This document shows, piece after piece, positions 314-8,741 of a DNA stretch of 64,000 bases. This stretch comes from Nostoc sp. UHCC 0870 (GTDB taxonomy: Bacteria > Cyanobacteriota > Cyanobacteriia > Cyanobacteriales > Nostocaceae), in assembly GCF_022063185.1 (NCBI RefSeq), contig NZ_CP091913.1, positions 3,918,001 to 3,982,000 of the forward strand, read 5' to 3'. The translations under genes were made by a program, and so were the position numbers. The notes beneath the pieces are model-generated. The model did no database searches. It saw only the letters and a program-made list of their open reading frames with translations, and was not told where the DNA came from. Position 1 is the stretch's first letter; each line of letters begins with the position of its first letter.

Positions 314-1915
314 TTAATTAAGAATAGGTGGAAGTCCTACTTCTTTGGGTTCGACAAACTCACCATCAAACCCTATCGTTTTATCTTCTACAGTTCTCGC
401 ACTAGCAAAAGCCTTGCGAAGTTCCGCAATTTCCATTGGGTCTTGAAGTCCACCCAGAATATAAATCAATAACTTAGCAGCTAAATCTTTTCCAGCCACC
501 TGTACCCGTTTTTTATTTGGGTCATATAAAATCCCATACCAGAGTGACTGGGGATACTCCATACCAGAAAAGCCACCTTGCTGGTCAAACTTCCGCAACT
601 TCTTAAAAATACTAGCTAAGGAAAAACGCTTTTTAAATACTAATAATCCTAAAGCTTGCGCTATAGCAACTTGCGCTACAGGACGGAAAAGTATATTCGC
701 TTCACCACCACCCTTTTCAAAACTAAACCTTCTTAAAACAGGCGTATCTTCATGTTCTAAAATTTTTAAACTAGGTAGGCTTGCCAAATTATCAAAAAGT
801 TTTCTGAATTCCTCAATTCCCTGTTCAATTTCCTCGTCTTCTGGGCGCATGGGAATTAAACCCTTCTCAAAAGGTTTCCAGTGGGGGAACTTTTGACCCA
901 AGTATCTTTCTGACATATCTTGTAATGCTTGCAGCGTCGTTAACACCGTAGCATTCGCTGCTACTGTTGCACTGTTCCAATTAACGCGAGGGTTACGATT
1001 TGGTTTCTGTTCTAAAAGCGGATGAGTAACAGCAATTTTTCGCGCCACAATTGCAAAACCATCATCTTCATTTAGCTGTGCTAACTGACCTTTAGTTAAC
1101 GGTGCAGCCATCAAGTTAACATGAACAAAAACCGAACGCACCCTCCGTCTTGCTTCAGTGCGAGTTTCCCCAGCATTCACCGCACAAATAAATTCAATCC
1201 CGATTTTTTCCTTGGGTAAGCTTTGTAAATAAGTAGGGTCTACTTGATATTGCTCTGTTAAATCTGACACGGTGATAAAACTATCATCAGCCGCTTTATC
1301 TTTTTTATATCGCTGGAGTTTGCCGGTTTTGATTAACTCTATTAACCCTTGCACCCCCATTAGTCGATGTTGACCATCTAGTGCATAAATGGTGACGTTC
1401 TCTTCAGAAACACTCAGTAAACCGACTTTACCATCTTTATCTAGAGGGGTAAAATCAGTTGTAGATTTTTTCGCACGTCCTTCACTGTCCCACTCAGAAG
1501 CTTTGGGGTCATCCACCCAAGGCTGACTAATTACCACCAGCACCGGCGGAAACTTATGATTTTTTCTAGCCGCCAAATACTGAACTAACGGTGCTTGACG
1601 CGACCAGTCCAGAGGACGTTGTTGAATCTCATCGATACTATCTGCGTCAATTTCAATATTATCTGTCTCTGGATTGTACTTTTTTTGCAGTAGGGGTAAA
1701 CCAGAGGCGAAGTGAACCCGACCCCCAAACCATTCTAGAGTTACAGAACCCACATAAGCCTCAGTTCCGCCCATTTGCGTCTTTTGAACTAAAATATGGT
1801 CTTTTTTATCTAAAAAGCTGCCTAAAAGTAAAGATAATACTTGCTTTTCCTTGTTTTCTCGTTCCAGATACTCTCTAGCGATGTCAGAAGTTGGATCAGA
1901 TGCACTGTCTTTCAT
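314..1915 (-). CDS. dndB: DndB-like DGQHR-domain protein of the DNA phosphorothioation system
   Basis: The 533-residue protein carries the family's DGQHR motif at residues 180-184 after a stretch of strands (TIYALDGQHR). DndB is known as a regulator of the dnd operon and is not essential for sulfur incorporation. Here it is divergent from dndC with a 295-base shared control region, which fits autoregulation. It is longer than the roughly 360-residue DndB of Streptomyces and Salmonella, and the extra length is mostly in the C-terminal half. The ATG start is chosen because no in-frame start lies upstream. Alternative: a DGQHR paralogue not strictly orthologous to DndB; the dndCDE context makes DndB most likely. 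Confidence 0.85.
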   Translation of the reverse strand: MKDSASDPTSDIAREYLERENKEKQVLSLLLGSFLDKKDHILVQKTQMGGTEAYVGSVTLEWFGGRVHFASGLPLLQKKYNPETDNIEIDADSIDEIQQRPLDWSRQAPLVQYLAARKNHKFPPVLVVISQPWVDDPKASEWDSEGRAKKSTTDFTPLDKDGKVGLLSVSEENVTIYALDGQHRLMGVQGLIELIKTGKLQRYKKDKAADDSFITVSDLTEQYQVDPTYLQSLPKEKIGIEFICAVNAGETRTEARRRVRSVFVHVNLMAAPLTKGQLAQLNEDDGFAIVARKIAVTHPLLEQKPNRNPRVNWNSATVAANATVLTTLQALQDMSERYLGQKFPHWKPFEKGLIPMRPEDEEIEQGIEEFRKLFDNLASLPSLKILEHEDTPVLRRFSFEKGGGEANILFRPVAQVAIAQALGLLVFKKRFSLASIFKKLRKFDQQGGFSGMEYPQSLWYGILYDPNKKRVQVAGKDLAAKLLIYILGGLQDPMEIAELRKAFASARTVEDKTIGFDGEFVEPKEVGLPPILN

Positions 1916-2210: not shown

Positions 2211-3836
2211 ATGAGTACAGCACAAAAACCAGAAACTAAAGGTCAGCAAACACGTACTGTATCAGAGTTCGTGGAAGATATCCAAGCTCTCACGACGGAA
2301 ATTCAAGAATTGTATTGTTTGGATGCAATACCTTGGGTTGTAGGTTATTCGGGTGGAAAAGACAGCACTGCTACTTTACAGTTGGTCTGGAATGCGATCG
2401 CCGAACTCCCTCCAGAAAAACGAACTAAGACAATATATGTGATCACTACAGATACCCTGGTAGAAAATCCTATCGTTGCTGCTTGGGTACGTAATTCTCT
2501 CAAACAGATGAAATCTGCGGCGCAAGCGCGAGAATTACCATTTGAACCTCATCTATTACAGCCAGATTTTAAAGAAACATTTTGGGTTGGTTTTATTGGT
2601 AAAGGTTATCCAGCACCAAGAGGAAAATTTCGTTGGTGTACAGAACGCCTCAAAATTAATCCGTCAAATCGCTTTATTCGTGATGTGATCCGAGCCAGTG
2701 GAGAAGCTATTGTCGTGCTGGGTACTCGCAAAGCTGAAAGCACAAGACGTGCTAGCAGAATGAAAAAATTAGAAGCTAAACGGGTACGCGATCACCTCAG
2801 TCCTAACATGAATTTGCCCAATTCTTTAGTTTATAGCCCTATCGAAGACTGGCAAAATGATGAAGTTTGGATTTATTTAATGCAGTGGGAAAATCCTTGG
2901 GGATACAGCAATAAAGACCTATTTTCTATGTATCGAGGTGCTTCTGCTGATAATGAATGTCCTTTAGTTGTTGACACAACTACACCTAGCTGTGGAAGCT
3001 CTCGTTTTGGTTGTTGGGTGTGTACTTTAGTCAGTCAGGATAAATCTCTGGCGGCGATGATTCAGAATGACGAAGAAAAAGAGTGGATGCAACCTCTACT
3101 CGATTTCCGTAAAGAATTGGATGCAGAAGAAACCCGCGATCGCCGAGATTTTCGCCGTAGAAGTGGGGTAGTTCAACTATATGAGCGTAACTTAGAGAAT
3201 GAAATATCGATTGAGCCTATTCCTGGCCCTTATGTCAAAGAAGCACGGGAAGATTGGCTGAGAAAATTACTTACAGTCGAAAAACAAATCCGTCAAACAG
3301 CACCAGAAAATATGCGCGATATTACTCTTATTTCTCTAGAGGAACTAAGTGAAATTCGCCGTATTTGGTTGGAAGAAAGACATGAATTTGATGATAGTCT
3401 ACCTCGTATCTATCAAGAAATAACAGGTCAAGAATTTAAAGACCCCCGTCCTGGGGCTGACCATAAACTACTAGGTAGTGATGAATGGTCTGTATTAGAA
3501 GAAATCTGTGCAGATGATGGTATGCACTTGGAACTGATGGCGAAACTTTTAGACACAGAACGCCAATTTCGGAAGAAAAGCAAGCGCGTAGGAATTTACG
3601 AAAGCTTAGAGAAATGCTTTGATACTAGTTCCCGTTCCCCAGAAGAAGCCATTAGAAATGCTCATTTAAAACGCGACTTAAGAGAAGCTGTTAGTCAAGG
3701 TGACATAGCCACGGTGAAAGAAAAAGTCAAGCAGCTAACTTTGGGTGATGCTGTCGATGAGCCTAAAAATGAAACTGACAAGCCTTCAACTTGGGGAAAT
3801 ATGAAGTTTAAAAATAAACAAGTAAAGGGCGATTAG
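2211..3836 (+). CDS. dndC: DndC, PAPS-reductase-like sulfurtransferase of DNA phosphorothioation
   Basis: 541 residues. The PP-loop SGGKDST lies at residues 47-53 after a strand (WVVGY), as in PAPS reductase/ATP pyrophosphatase folds. Cysteines at 143, 250, 261, 268 and 271 (last three in CGSSRFGCWVC) match the iron-sulfur ligands expected in DndC. In the known pathway DndC works with DndD and DndE, using sulfur mobilised by DndA or IscS, to replace a non-bridging phosphate oxygen in DNA. First gene of the + strand operon, with a strong ribosome binding site. Its last residues (KGD) and TAG stop come from a dispersed repeat that also supplies the end of the next gene, so the native C-terminus may have been altered. 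Confidence 0.94.
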   Translation: MSTAQKPETKGQQTRTVSEFVEDIQALTTEIQELYCLDAIPWVVGYSGGKDSTATLQLVWNAIAELPPEKRTKTIYVITTDTLVENPIVAAWVRNSLKQMKSAAQARELPFEPHLLQPDFKETFWVGFIGKGYPAPRGKFRWCTERLKINPSNRFIRDVIRASGEAIVVLGTRKAESTRRASRMKKLEAKRVRDHLSPNMNLPNSLVYSPIEDWQNDEVWIYLMQWENPWGYSNKDLFSMYRGASADNECPLVVDTTTPSCGSSRFGCWVCTLVSQDKSLAAMIQNDEEKEWMQPLLDFRKELDAEETRDRRDFRRRSGVVQLYERNLENEISIEPIPGPYVKEAREDWLRKLLTVEKQIRQTAPENMRDITLISLEELSEIRRIWLEERHEFDDSLPRIYQEITGQEFKDPRPGADHKLLGSDEWSVLEEICADDGMHLELMAKLLDTERQFRKKSKRVGIYESLEKCFDTSSRSPEEAIRNAHLKRDLREAVSQGDIATVKEKVKQLTLGDAVDEPKNETDKPSTWGNMKFKNKQVKGD

Positions 3837-3837
3837 T

Positions 3838-3892
3838 AAAAGGCGATTAGAAATCGCGGCTACACAGACAAAACCCGCCTGCGCGGGTTCAA
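3838..3892 (+). repeat. REP-like palindromic repeat, copy 1 (left of the RAYT gene)
   Basis: The unit begins GGCGATTAGAAATCGCGGCT (3842) and ends in a 7-bp stem AACCCGC/GCGGGTT with a 4-base loop (3872-3889). A second direct copy and an inverted partial copy lie on the other side of the transposase gene, which identifies them as the repeats served by that transposase. Confidence 0.8.
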
Positions 3893-3897
3893 GGAAA

Positions 3898-4329
3898 ATG
3901 AGAGCAAATTTTACGCAATTATATCTACATTACGTTTGGGCAACTTGGGATAGATTACCTCTAATTACACCTGATATTCAAAAGTTAGTTTATGCAGCAA
4001 TTATTAAAGAATGTGAACAGTTAAAATGTACTGTAATTGCAGTTGGTGGTATTGAAGACCATGTTCATCTACTAACAGGTTTTCCTGTAACTGTGAGTGT
4101 GTCTGAATTAATTAAACAGATTAAAGGTAGTTCTTCTCATTTTATAACTCACGAAGTCAAGCCAGGCGATTTTTTCAAATGGCAAGGTAGCTATGCCGCT
4201 TTTACTGTTAGCCATGATGCAATCAATAGCGTGGCTAATTATATCAGAAATCAAGCTAATCATCATCAACAAAAATCTCTTATTTCTACTTGGGAATTAA
4301 ATTTACCGGGCGATTTAAAGGGCGATTAG
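3898..4329 (+). CDS. REP-associated Y1 (IS200-like) transposase, RAYT
   Basis: 143 residues. The HUH metal-binding motif is at 55-57 (DHVHLLT) and the candidate nucleophile is Tyr115 in YIRNQANHH, the standard arrangement of IS200/RAYT single-strand transposases. The length is typical and the gene appears intact. It sits between dndC and dndD in the same direction, with 61 bases upstream and 144 downstream, flanked by palindromic repeats rather than IS605 partner genes. The stop codon lies inside the downstream repeat (GGCGATTAG). It is probably carried passively in the dnd transcript. Whether it disturbs dndD expression cannot be told from the sequence. Confidence 0.88.
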   Translation: MRANFTQLYLHYVWATWDRLPLITPDIQKLVYAAIIKECEQLKCTVIAVGGIEDHVHLLTGFPVTVSVSELIKQIKGSSSHFITHEVKPGDFFKWQGSYAAFTVSHDAINSVANYIRNQANHHQQKSLISTWELNLPGDLKGD

Positions 4330-4442
4330 AAATCGCGGCTATACAAACAAAACCCGCGCAGGCGGGTTAAATATTTCATTTCTACTTTCTTAATAGTCCG
4401 CGTAGGCGGACTTAGCCTGTGTAGCCGCGAATTTCATTCGCC
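4317..4442 (+). repeat. REP-like repeat cluster, copies 2 and 3 (direct plus inverted)
   Basis: Copy 2 (4321-4368) repeats the left unit with the stem AACCCGC/GCGGGTT (4351-4357, 4362-4368). A second hairpin GTCCGC/GCGGAC follows (4396-4401, 4406-4411). Then comes an inverted partial copy of the outer part (4417-4442, TGTGTAGCCGCGA...). Copies 2 and 3 face each other, making a BIME-like cruciform just upstream of dndD. Confidence 0.75.
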
Positions 4443-4473
4443 TTGAACTGTGTAGCTATAACCATAAAGACAA

Positions 4474-6462
4474 ATGATATTTCTAGAACTCGTATTACAA
4501 AACTTCGGACCTTATTCTGGCAGACAAGTAATAAATCTTGATACAAGAAGTGAAGAAAACCACCGTCCAATTGTCTTATTAGGTGGGATGAATGGCGGGG
4601 GAAAAACTACTCTGATGGATTCTATCCGCCTAGCTCTCTATGGACAACGCGCTCAATGTTCTACTCGTGGTAACTTGAGTTATAGTGATTTTTTAACTCA
4701 ATGCGTTAATAATAAAGCAACCCCTGCGGAAAAAACCCGCATTGAATTACTTTTTGAACACATTGAAGACGATAAACCAGTCAAATATCGTATTGTCAGA
4801 ACTTGGGAAAAAAACCCAAAAGACGGTAAAGACACACTAGGGATTTTAGGTGATGATGACACCTGGCCTGTTGATTCTTTAGTAAATATCTGGGATGACT
4901 ATATAGAAAATCTCCTACCAATAGGTATTTCTAACTTATTTCTCTTTGATGGAGAACAAGTTAAAGAACTTGCAGAACAGGAAACACCACCACCAATAGT
5001 TATCGAAGCTATTCGCGGACTCTTAGGGTTAGAGTTGTCCGATAAATTGGCAGTTGATTTAGAAATATTAGTAAACCGCAAACGTAAAGAAGTCGCGGAA
5101 ATTAAAGATTTAGCTAATTTAGAAGAAATTGAAAAACGATTAACACAATATCAGGAAGATTATCAAGAAATAGAATCAGAATTAGCAAAGCTAAATAATC
5201 AAACTGAAGAACTAGAAACTCAACAGCGAGAAGCTTTAGATAAGTTCATTTCTGAAGGCGGTAAAATAGCCGCCGAACGCAATCAATTAGAACAACAACA
5301 GAAAGATAAGTTATTAATAGTAGAAGATATCAGACAGTCAATGGGTGAATTAGCTGCTGATGTTTTACCCCTAGCATTAATTCCCAATTTACTAAATCAA
5401 GTTCAAGCGCAGGGAACACAAGAATTTCGCTATCAACAGGTACAGTTATCTAAAGATGTCTTAATTGAGCGAGATCAACGCTTACTAAATTGGCTGAATC
5501 AATTAGCAATTAATTTAGAACAGGTTGATCAGATTCAATCTTTTCTTAAGGAAGATGCAGAGAGTTTATATACAGGTTACGCTCAATCAGAAGCACCTTG
5601 GCTATTAGCAGATGAGGAAAGTTTGAGCCAACTAGATAATGTGAGATATCATTTGCAAAATGCTAAGAAATCTGCTCAACAACACTTAACTAAGTTGCAA
5701 GGTGTAGAAGAAGAAATTATCACTTTAGAAAGACAAGTACAGACAGCCGCAGAACCGGAAGCATATCAAAAGCTACGCGAGACTGTGGAAGATGCACAAA
5801 ATCAAGTTTCTCAAGCTAAGGCTAAATGTGAAATAACTCGCCGCAAATTTGCGGAATTAACAGATGTAATTGAACGGACAAAGAAAGAATTAAAGGAATA
5901 TACAGATAAAAATCTTGATAGTAAAAATAGACAACATATTATTACTTCAGTCGCAAAAGTCCAAGAGACATTGAAACTTTTTCGAGAAAAATTAACTCTG
6001 AAAAAACTGAATAAATTAGAGGAGGAAGTGAAGAATTGTTTTCTCTATCTGCTACACAAATCTGATTTAGTGCGTAGCATCGCCATTGACACCAAGACTT
6101 TTAGTTTGTCTATTTATGATTTCAATGGTAAACCAGTTCCCAAACATCGCCTGTCAGCAGGGGAAAAACAACTACTAGCGATCGCATTTCTCTGGGGACT
6201 AGCCAAAGTCTCAGGACTTCGCCTACCAGTAGCCATTGACACACCCCTCGGTAGACTCGATTCTTCCCACCGCAACAATCTAGTAGAGAAATACTTTCCC
6301 TCCGCCAGTCATCAAGTTATTTTGTTATCCACTGATACGGAAATCGGTAAAAAAGAAGTCGAAACACTACGTGAAAATGAAGCGATCGCCCGTGAATACC
6401 TCCTCAAATACGACTCACACAACCGCGAAACCACCGTCATAGAAAATCAATACTTTTGGTAG
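4474..6462 (+). CDS. dndD: DndD, SMC/RecF-like ATPase of DNA phosphorothioation
   Basis: 662 residues. Walker A is GMNGGGKT at 38-45. A long coiled coil rich in Glu, Gln and Lys fills roughly 190-540. The ABC signature LSAGEKQLLAIAF starts near 559 and Walker B with the D-loop (VAIDTPLGRLD) lies near 587. This is the head-coil-head layout of RecF/SbcC-type ATPases and the usual size for DndD. DndD has ATPase activity and is thought to open or scan DNA for sulfur insertion by DndC. All ATPase motifs are intact. The gap to dndC holds the transposase and its repeats. Confidence 0.94.
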   Translation: MIFLELVLQNFGPYSGRQVINLDTRSEENHRPIVLLGGMNGGGKTTLMDSIRLALYGQRAQCSTRGNLSYSDFLTQCVNNKATPAEKTRIELLFEHIEDDKPVKYRIVRTWEKNPKDGKDTLGILGDDDTWPVDSLVNIWDDYIENLLPIGISNLFLFDGEQVKELAEQETPPPIVIEAIRGLLGLELSDKLAVDLEILVNRKRKEVAEIKDLANLEEIEKRLTQYQEDYQEIESELAKLNNQTEELETQQREALDKFISEGGKIAAERNQLEQQQKDKLLIVEDIRQSMGELAADVLPLALIPNLLNQVQAQGTQEFRYQQVQLSKDVLIERDQRLLNWLNQLAINLEQVDQIQSFLKEDAESLYTGYAQSEAPWLLADEESLSQLDNVRYHLQNAKKSAQQHLTKLQGVEEEIITLERQVQTAAEPEAYQKLRETVEDAQNQVSQAKAKCEITRRKFAELTDVIERTKKELKEYTDKNLDSKNRQHIITSVAKVQETLKLFREKLTLKKLNKLEEEVKNCFLYLLHKSDLVRSIAIDTKTFSLSIYDFNGKPVPKHRLSAGEKQLLAIAFLWGLAKVSGLRLPVAIDTPLGRLDSSHRNNLVEKYFPSASHQVILLSTDTEIGKKEVETLRENEAIAREYLLKYDSHNRETTVIENQYFW

Positions 6463-6550: not shown

Positions 6551-6793
6551 ATGGTATCACCACATTTATTAGAAATAGAGCGTGACTTATGTGCTTTATC
6601 ATTAGAAGAACTACAATGGCTCTTAGAACGTATTCAAAAGCAAATGCAAGAAAGACAGCAAACATCAGATAAGTTAACTCATCAAAAATACATGAATGCA
6701 CAATTAGCAGCAATGGCTATTGATGCAGATATTCAAACAGAAATTACTGCAATCCATCAGGAGTTTCTTGTGACTGACATGGATGGATTATAA
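6551..6793 (+). CDS. Small antitoxin-like protein, no toxin partner next to it
   Basis: 80 residues, helical. It resembles, from memory, a cyanobacterial small-protein family that ends in a conserved 'MDGL' tail and often lies immediately upstream of a MazF/PemK-type toxin gene. Here the gene ends in the expected tail (TDMDGL), but only about 50 non-coding bases follow before dndE and no toxin frame is present. It is either an orphan antitoxin left after toxin loss or a gene with another role in the operon. The assignment rests on recalled family resemblance only. Confidence 0.55.
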   Translation: MVSPHLLEIERDLCALSLEELQWLLERIQKQMQERQQTSDKLTHQKYMNAQLAAMAIDADIQTEITAIHQEFLVTDMDGL

Positions 6794-6845: not shown

Positions 6846-7247
6846 ATGGAATCTCCAATAGAAAGAATTAAACTCTCCCAAACTGCAAAAGAGCAATTAC
6901 TTAAACTCAAACGCAACACTAAAATCGACCAATGGAATATTCTTTGTCGTTGGGCTTTTTGTCGTTCCCTTGCAGAATCTACCCCACCTTCCCCCGTTCC
7001 ACTTCCCCAAGATAGTAACGTCGAACTAACTTGGCGCGTCTTTGGTGGCGAAATATCCGATATTCTCCTCCTCGCCCTCAAACAACGCTGTCATAATGAT
7101 GGCTATCCCACGGATAAAGAAACCCTAGCCACCCAATTCCGTCTACATTTGCATCGCGGTATTGGTTACTTAGCCGGCGACCCAAATATCAAGAAAATTG
7201 AAGATTTAATTGAACTGGCAATAAAAGGTGGAAAGGATATTAAGTAA
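6846..7247 (+). CDS. dndE: DndE, small DNA-binding component of DNA phosphorothioation
   Basis: 133 residues. It begins with IERIKLSQTAKEQLLKLKRNT and includes a Trp-rich segment (DQWNILCRWAFCRSL) and a C-terminal region RLHLHRGIGYLAG, all typical of the DndE family. DndE is known to bind nicked DNA and to be required together with DndC and DndD. It follows dndD after the antitoxin-like gene and precedes the associated methyltransferase by about 40 bases, so it is probably co-transcribed with both. The frame is intact and the length normal. Confidence 0.9.
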   Translation: MESPIERIKLSQTAKEQLLKLKRNTKIDQWNILCRWAFCRSLAESTPPSPVPLPQDSNVELTWRVFGGEISDILLLALKQRCHNDGYPTDKETLATQFRLHLHRGIGYLAGDPNIKKIEDLIELAIKGGKDIK

Positions 7248-7289: not shown

Positions 7290-8741
7290 ATGCCTGAAAC
7301 GGTAGAAATCGAGCGTCATAGAGCCGCGATCGCTCGCAATGAAATCTCTCGTCCTGTACGATTGGCTATAGAATGGGCAATCCTCAACCAAGACACCAGT
7401 TTTTTCGATTACGGTTGCGGCTATGGTGGGGATGTGCAACGTGTAGCTAACCTCGGCTACACCAGTTTAGGCTGGGACCCTTATTACTACCCCGATGAAC
7501 CAATCACCTCTGCTGATGTGGTTAATTTGGGTTACATCCTCAACGTCATAGAAGATATTGAAGAACGTCGCCAAAGTCTCATCCAAGCTTGGGAACTCAC
7601 CGGCAAAGTTTTAATTGTCGCCGCACAAGTATTAATTAATGCTCCCAGCAAAGCCCAACTAGCTTACAGTGATGGTATCGTCACCAGGCGGAATACTTTC
7701 CAAAAATATTACGAACAAGAAGAACTCAAAAAATATATTAATGAAGTCTTAAATGTAGATGCAGTTCCAGTAGCACTGGGTGTCTACTTTGTCTTCCGAG
7801 ATGAAGCTGAAAAAGAAAGTTTCAAAGCCATCCGCTTCTTTTCCCGCACCTCTACACCACGCGTCCGCATCCCCATCAAGCGGTTTGAAGACTACCAAGA
7901 ACAACTCCAACCCCTGATGGAGTTTTTCACCCAACGCGGTAGATTACCCGTCAAAGGTGAATTAGCCACAGCACAAGAACTACTGGGGGAATTTGGTAAC
8001 TTCCGCCGCGCCTTTAATGTCATTTTACAAGCTACCGACGAAGCCGAATGGGATGCGATCGCCTACCGTCGTTCTTTAGATATTCAAGTCTACCTCGCCC
8101 TCACCCACTTTGATCAACGTCCCAGATTCTCGCAATTAGCCCCAACCATGCGCCACGACATCAAAGCTTTCTTTGGTAGCTATGAGGAAGCGTGTGAAGT
8201 CGCTGACCAAAAATTATTTAGTCTAGGTAAACCAGGAATAATTAAAACCGCCTGTGACAAAAGCAAAATTGGGAAACATACACGGGGTGCGCTTTACGTC
8301 CATGTTTCCGCTTTATCAGCCCTAGACCCCTTACTACGCATTTACGAAGGTTGCGCCAGCCGCACCATTGGACGTGTTGATGGGGCTACGTTAATCAAAT
8401 ATCACATTGATAAACCGCAAATATCCTATCTTTTTTACCCAGAATTCGACACAGACCCCCATCCAGCCCTCACAGCTAGTATCACAATTGACTTAAAAAC
8501 TTTGTATATCACTCACCGAGATTACAGTGACAGGGCAAATCCTCCCGTACTGCACCGCAAGGAAACCTTTGTTACAGCTAGTTATCCTCTGTATGAACAG
8601 TTTGCCAAACTCACCCAGCAGGAAGAGGAATTGGGATTACTGCAACAGAAAAGCGAAATTGGTACGCGTGAAGGTTGGAAGAAATGCCTAGCTGCACACG
8701 GAGTAGAAATTAGGGGACATGAAGTTGAACAAATTAGGTAA
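7290..8741 (+). CDS. DNA phosphorothioation-associated putative methyltransferase
   Basis: 483 residues. An N-terminal SAM-binding motif of the Rossmann methyltransferase type is visible at 40-47 (DYGCGYGG), followed by the acidic second strand (LGWDPYYYPDEP). This matches the family found next to dnd operons in cyanobacteria and other bacteria (known as TIGR04096), whose substrate is unproven. It lies 42 bases after dndE in the same direction, so it probably works with the phosphorothioation enzymes. No target recognition domain is obvious; the large C-terminal half is family specific. Confidence 0.85.
   Translation: MPETVEIERHRAAIARNEISRPVRLAIEWAILNQDTSFFDYGCGYGGDVQRVANLGYTSLGWDPYYYPDEPITSADVVNLGYILNVIEDIEERRQSLIQAWELTGKVLIVAAQVLINAPSKAQLAYSDGIVTRRNTFQKYYEQEELKKYINEVLNVDAVPVALGVYFVFRDEAEKESFKAIRFFSRTSTPRVRIPIKRFEDYQEQLQPLMEFFTQRGRLPVKGELATAQELLGEFGNFRRAFNVILQATDEAEWDAIAYRRSLDIQVYLALTHFDQRPRFSQLAPTMRHDIKAFFGSYEEACEVADQKLFSLGKPGIIKTACDKSKIGKHTRGALYVHVSALSALDPLLRIYEGCASRTIGRVDGATLIKYHIDKPQISYLFYPEFDTDPHPALTASITIDLKTLYITHRDYSDRANPPVLHRKETFVTASYPLYEQFAKLTQQEEELGLLQQKSEIGTREGWKKCLAAHGVEIRGHEVEQIR

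Follow-up and report, generated by a model that had tools for sequence, protein, structure and literature searches.

The gap between dndC and dndD, two of the genes that put sulfur into DNA (phosphorothioation), is probably occupied in Nostoc sp. UHCC 0870 by a REPtron-like element, that is, by a single subclass 1.2-like Y1 HUH transposase gene (tnpA) with its cognate GTAG-tagged REPs, which has been a long-term resident of this position in the Nostocaceae. The gene lies between its two neighbours and on the same strand as both (Table 1; coordinates refer to the window, the whole 64,000-nucleotide stretch that was analysed). Judged by comparison with relatives, it is not a recent insertion, and it has been in the dndC-dndD gap since deep in the history of the family. 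Curated Pfam/NCBIfam profiles match dndC, dndD and dndE and identify the locus as a dnd operon; the profiles and the repeat coordinates agree with the initial annotation, which had placed a transposase and repeats within it.

Table 1. Coordinates of the dnd genes, tnpA and the flanking repeats in the window
Feature	Coordinates	Strand	Remarks
dndB-like (DGQHR domain)	314..1915	-	Pfam/NCBIfam; divergent from dndC
dndC, 541 aa	2211..3836	+	TIGR03183 9e-217; final codons GTA AAG GGC GAT TAG
Partial REP left end (TAAAGGGCGATTAG)	3823..3836	+	Contains dndC stop codon; three-copy family
Upstream REP	3837..3892	+	Hairpin GCGATTAGAAATCGC 3843-3857; CTAC (complement of GTAG) 3860-3863; second hairpin 3872-3889
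tnpA, Y1/HUH transposase, 143 aa	3898..4329	+	Pfam Y1_Tnp 1.1e-23
REPIN/BIME	4321..4442	+	Direct REP from 4321; hairpins 4351-4368, 4395-4412; inverted GTAG-tagged REP ~4421-4442
dndD, 662 aa	4474..6462	+	TIGR03185 1e-232
dndE	6846..7247	+	PF08870 4e-45

An 80-aa ORF between dndD and dndE (window 6551-6793) has a counterpart in several relatives, with 61-65% identity, and a long ORF right behind dndE (window 7290-8741) looks methyltransferase-like. In four congeners (G003, G005, G004 and G009; loci L056, L057, L058 and L059) dndC is present and dndD does not adjoin it; in G005 the two genes are on different contigs.

Sequence comparison across our main sample, 118 genomes of the family with dndC in 115, dndD in 114 and the two adjacent in 107, shows that tnpA resides in the gap and is co-inherited with dndD. 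A tnpA homologue about 79-88% identical to that of the window was found in 19 of the 107 adjacent pairs, from 17 genera and always on the dnd strand; by name, the carriers include Nostoc, Trichormus, Cylindrospermum and Roholtiella records. None of the 118 genomes has a tnpA at least 78% identical outside the gap, and the homologues that do occur elsewhere in them are more distant (mostly 59-77%). In a phylum-wide sample, tnpA likewise adjoins dndD in two more carriers (G234 and G466). Outside this clade, a Xenococcaceae MAG (71%) again has the order dndC-REP-tnpA-REP-dndD, and homologues with 75-81% identity in Planktothrix, Microcoleus, Plectonema LEGE 06105 and one Richelia MAG are not beside dnd on the stretch seen. 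A second cassette, an apparent reverse-strand HTH gene with a small forward ORF, also recurs between dndC and dndD (L051 7950-8700, and the gaps of G002, G038, G045, G089, G013, G085 and G110); in G007 that forward ORF, too, terminates within a REP, its last residues being PGD*. The gaps of G037 and G119 contain other genes.

Pairwise distances of tnpA and dndD are correlated (r=0.64, p=1e-4), much as those of dndC and dndD are (0.66). The tnpA alignment reaches a logL of -1590 on the dndD topology, against -1685 for the best of 150 label-shuffled topologies and a mean of -1748, so that each of the 150 trails the dndD topology by at least some 95 log units. Exact identity of the tnpA and dndD trees is rejected by the AU test (p 0.005) but not by the SH test (0.375). 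The dndC topology fits the same alignment poorly (logL -1726 versus -1590 for dndD) and co-inheritance is thus with dndD only. Median dS is 1.05 for tnpA, 1.08 for dndC and 1.15 for dndD, and a dN/dS of 0.096 in tnpA, the lowest of the three (0.15 for dndC/dndD), indicates purifying selection; each of the 17 copies examined has kept the HUH, WQ and Y motifs. Monophyly of the dnd-resident tnpA clade has a support of 93/84 in one tree, and in a wider tree the clade is without resolution, with monophyly not rejected (p 0.44). The presence of tnpA is scattered on the dndD tree. It takes a minimum of 13-16 changes, and a single gain would call for 40 losses, so that the gene has probably been regained in some cases through recombination or insertion; allelic exchange via dnd homology could restore it. 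Loss, too, appears to be recurrent, because 11 of 90 empty gaps hold a REP, a scar hairpin or a tnpA remnant (first codons), as against 0 of 1800 shuffled gaps, a control that covers the motif searches and not the tnpA BLAST. In two filled/empty pairs (G125/G112 and G102/G120) the alleles are, as read by eye, joined inside the outer REP arms. Empty alleles may always be scars, or may sometimes be targets. As for dndC itself, its topology in the 17 carriers is in strong conflict with both dndD and tnpA, which points to separate exchange of dndC.

A 14-mer unit resembling TAAAGGGCGATTAG occurs at 3823, 3837 and 4316. The 56-nt direct repeats at 3837-3892 and 4316-4371 share 86% identity, and ahead of dndD (start 4474) there is an inverted copy at 4398-4449. 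The GTAG-tagged REPs are direct at 3842 and 4321 and inverted ahead of dndD. Read on the reverse strand, the REP unit is TGTGTAGCC-GCGATTTCTAATCGC-C, in which GTAG precedes a stem-loop and a linker leads on to a second, GC-rich hairpin. The upstream REP has a DNA fold z of -3.9. The downstream structure, which overlaps the tnpA stop, folds as a long stem with two arms, and the 158 nt at 4316-4473 have an RNA fold of -60.1 kcal/mol (z -7.0), matched by none of 200 shuffles; Rfam gave no match. This inverted pair of REPs round a short spacer, together with three complete 117-nt copies elsewhere in the genome, qualifies as a REPIN, and the BIME-like arrangement of direct and inverted copies that had been proposed ahead of dndD is confirmed. 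The 17-mer core GATTAGAAATCGCGGCT has six copies in the 7.17-Mb genome and none for the reversed control, and a wider REP pattern has eight genome-wide matches against none in the control; the repeat is not private to the locus, as it would have had to be for the initial annotation to fail.

REP numbers follow tnpA. Outside the gap, no dnd-tnpA carrier has fewer than 4 REPs and the median is 13, compared with a genome-wide median of 1 in genomes without any close tnpA (p 1.7e-8), a comparison without phylogenetic control that overstates significance; in the weaker paired test, the tnpA-bearing genome has more REPs in 13 of 16 phylogenetically independent pairs (p 0.02). The type of the flanking REP shifts with the tnpA clade, as read by eye, and some genomes hold REPs without this tnpA.

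By profile the protein is a Y1/IS200-type transposase, with Y1_Tnp and IS200 scores above their cut-offs, and its confident AlphaFold2 model (pLDDT 86) has IS608 and ISDra2 TnpA as best Foldseek matches, with the REP transposase structure 4er8 ranking after them. Its motifs are D54-H-V-H57, W95-Q and Y115-IRNQ-xx-HH123, and by this signature (DH[VI]H, WQ, Y---Q--HH) it is classed as TnpA-Y1 subclass 1.2-like. One close tnpA per genome in the dnd clade agrees with the low copy number of that subclass, and Flavobacterium and other Bacteroidetes are among the distant matches, Cyanobacteria and Bacteroidetes being the taxa of subclass 1.2. The nearest paralogue in its own genome is only 39% identical, in place of the near-identical multiple copies of an IS200/IS605 element, and no TnpB-like ORF is found beside tnpA in the window ORF listing. 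Subclass 1.2 has been described as being without REPs (PMC6006769), yet the Nostocaceae tnpA is REP-flanked and REP counts go with it; the assignment thus stands by motif, and the published negative feature fails. REPs with GTAG beside a stem-loop, as expected of a RAYT, flank the gene in the window and in relatives. The name RAYT, given initially, does not hold in the strict class 2 sense. The Y---NP signature of the catalytic helix is absent from 17 of 17 TnpA copies, which have Y[IV][RK]NQ..HH instead, and with the RAYT family profile REP_Tyr_transpos (NF047646) the protein reaches 26.5 bits where the cut-off is 80, which together rule out a canonical class-2 RAYT/TnpA-REP.

The sequence GGCGATTAG gives dndC and tnpA the same KGD* end; the codons AAG GGC GAT TAG are read in both, as had been noted at the outset, a side effect of the left end of a REP meeting the end of each gene. 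About four DndC residues are repeat-derived. Past a conserved W..xKF motif the DndC tail differs in every genome compared, and REP-like endings are found elsewhere (PGE* in G023, LGD* in G045, KGE* in G106 and G121); orthologues do not, then, all end in KGD, an outcome that would have spoken against a contribution from the repeat. The closest relative by dndD, G008, is without tnpA but has the same REPIN, which aligns closely with the window together with the dndD start. Its dndC ends KFKK*, followed by 9 nt and then a full REP from the same point, so that dndC of the window is about six residues longer and stops in the REP left end. A frameshift of dndC caused by the insertion was considered and set aside: at the dndC end G008 differs from the window by one A in a run and by TAA/CAA, and whether the window lineage lost an A, extending dndC, or G008 gained one, truncating it, is ambiguous given another lineage in which DndC ends KFKNKQTKL*. 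GTAG REPs often supply stop codons to adjoining ORFs, according to a 2013 survey (PMC3733652). Among the fetched loci, only 4 of 109 REP copies end an in-frame ORF of at least 90 codons, three of the four being tnpA itself, and stop supply is therefore not a general rule of this REP family. The REP-supplied stops of dndC and tnpA are real but minor, and of a kind already known for GTAG REPs. In the Plectonema locus (L271, ~3112-3330) several tandem REPs lie upstream of the tnpA homologue, some of them crossed by an open frame.

The initial proposal was that a RAYT/REP insertion, read here as a recent one, rewrote the end of dndC and split the gene from dndD. In the window a REP does supply the stop of dndC, in relatives that lack it DndC ends KFKK* or KFKNKQTKL*, and the separation is real, the gap being enlarged to 637 nt as against 118-250 nt in tnpA-less congeners (975 in one). 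The small change to the tail therefore stands. As an account of the transposase, however, the proposal is highly improbable: its presence in 17 genera, its co-inheritance with dndD and its dS mark tnpA as old in the gap, G008 has the REPIN at the same point with no tnpA, and the DndC tail is variable everywhere. A rival reading is repeated independent insertion, in which the gap, or a REP already in place there, is a preferred target into which tnpA homed many times. The patchy presence of tnpA on the dndD tree, near to that of shuffled labels, would be explained in this way, as would near-identical dndD sisters that differ in tnpA (G084/G039, G125/G112), and where an empty allele holds a single REP-like hairpin, this could mark a target instead of a scar. 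Other inserted genes are also found in the gap, which seems to tolerate insertions generally. We nevertheless regard repeated insertion as unlikely, given that tnpA distances and topology follow dndD, that its dS equals that of its neighbours, unlike copies of a mobile pool, that tnpA remnants persist in G070 and G114, and that the 118 genomes hold no close copy elsewhere to serve as a source.

The close clade resides exclusively in the dnd operon, is co-inherited with dndD and is under stronger purifying selection than the dnd genes, and the Xenococcaceae MAG has the same arrangement. This might instead indicate that TnpA was recruited to the Dnd system, as a Y1 single-strand nuclease that acts together with the Dnd machinery or upon it, for instance in processing or regulation at phosphorothioated DNA, or in control of the operon via the REP hairpins. 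Such a partnership is decidedly unlikely, however, since 88 of the 107 adjacent dndC-dndD pairs do without tnpA, since genomes of another family of the order have dndD and yet carry their homologues at other sites, and since no mechanism is known.

We therefore favour a long-resident REPtron-like element. Within 3700-4600, a scan limited to the sigma-70 consensus found no promoter-like site, and there is no plus-strand terminator-like site, which fits expression of tnpA by read-through from dndC; the gene is probably transcribed in this manner, from the dndC promoter, as part of the dnd operon. By analogy with REPtrons (PMC8266576), TnpA would bind the REP hairpin on single-stranded DNA with GTAG as a guide, cut via Tyr115 and join REP DNA, and so might copy REPs and REPINs round the genome at a low rate. 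The element would be lost via deletion between REP arms, and the dnd operon would provide it with shelter and expression, with no demonstrated benefit for the dnd genes. We infer, then, that TnpA may be active and expressed, and any role in phosphorothioation would be putative. The locus is a clear case of a transposase kept at one operon position over many genera; filled alleles occur next to empty ones, which makes domestication versus parasitism of REP-linked transposases testable.

Cyanobacterial dnd operons have been described as dndBCDE in Nostocales, with largely vertical inheritance (PMC8569181), which agrees with the present locus, but a resident transposase is not mentioned in that paper; a REP system tied to the dnd phosphorothioation operon is a link that we did not find in the literature searched. 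The element shares with REPtrons and RAYTs with REPINs (PMC2817692, PMC8266576, PMC8049555) a single-copy, long-inherited HUH transposase, flanking GTAG-tagged inverted REPs and non-autonomous REPINs elsewhere in the genome. It differs from them in that TnpA is of class 1, without Y---NP and with a RAYT score below cut-off, in having few REPs per genome (6-53, one pattern) and in its site, a DNA-modification operon. The GTAG-12/15/16 REPs of filamentous cyanobacteria (PMC3733652), likened here by description, also have GTAG beside a stem-loop, whereas the TAG used here lies within the palindrome (GGCGATTAG) and is not that of the GTAG tag. With IS200/IS605 elements (IS608, ISDra2) TnpA shares a predicted Y1 HUH fold, its best structural match, but tnpA has not spread in multiple copies, and its ends are REPs, not typical subterminal IS hairpins. 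Subclass 1.2 TnpA-Y1 (PMC6006769) has in common with it the motifs, a short protein, low copy number and occurrence in Cyanobacteria. Here, in contrast, the gene is flanked by REPs, its host genomes hold more of these REPs and it keeps a fixed place in one operon, and the association with REPs is thereby extended to a TnpA subclass reported without them.
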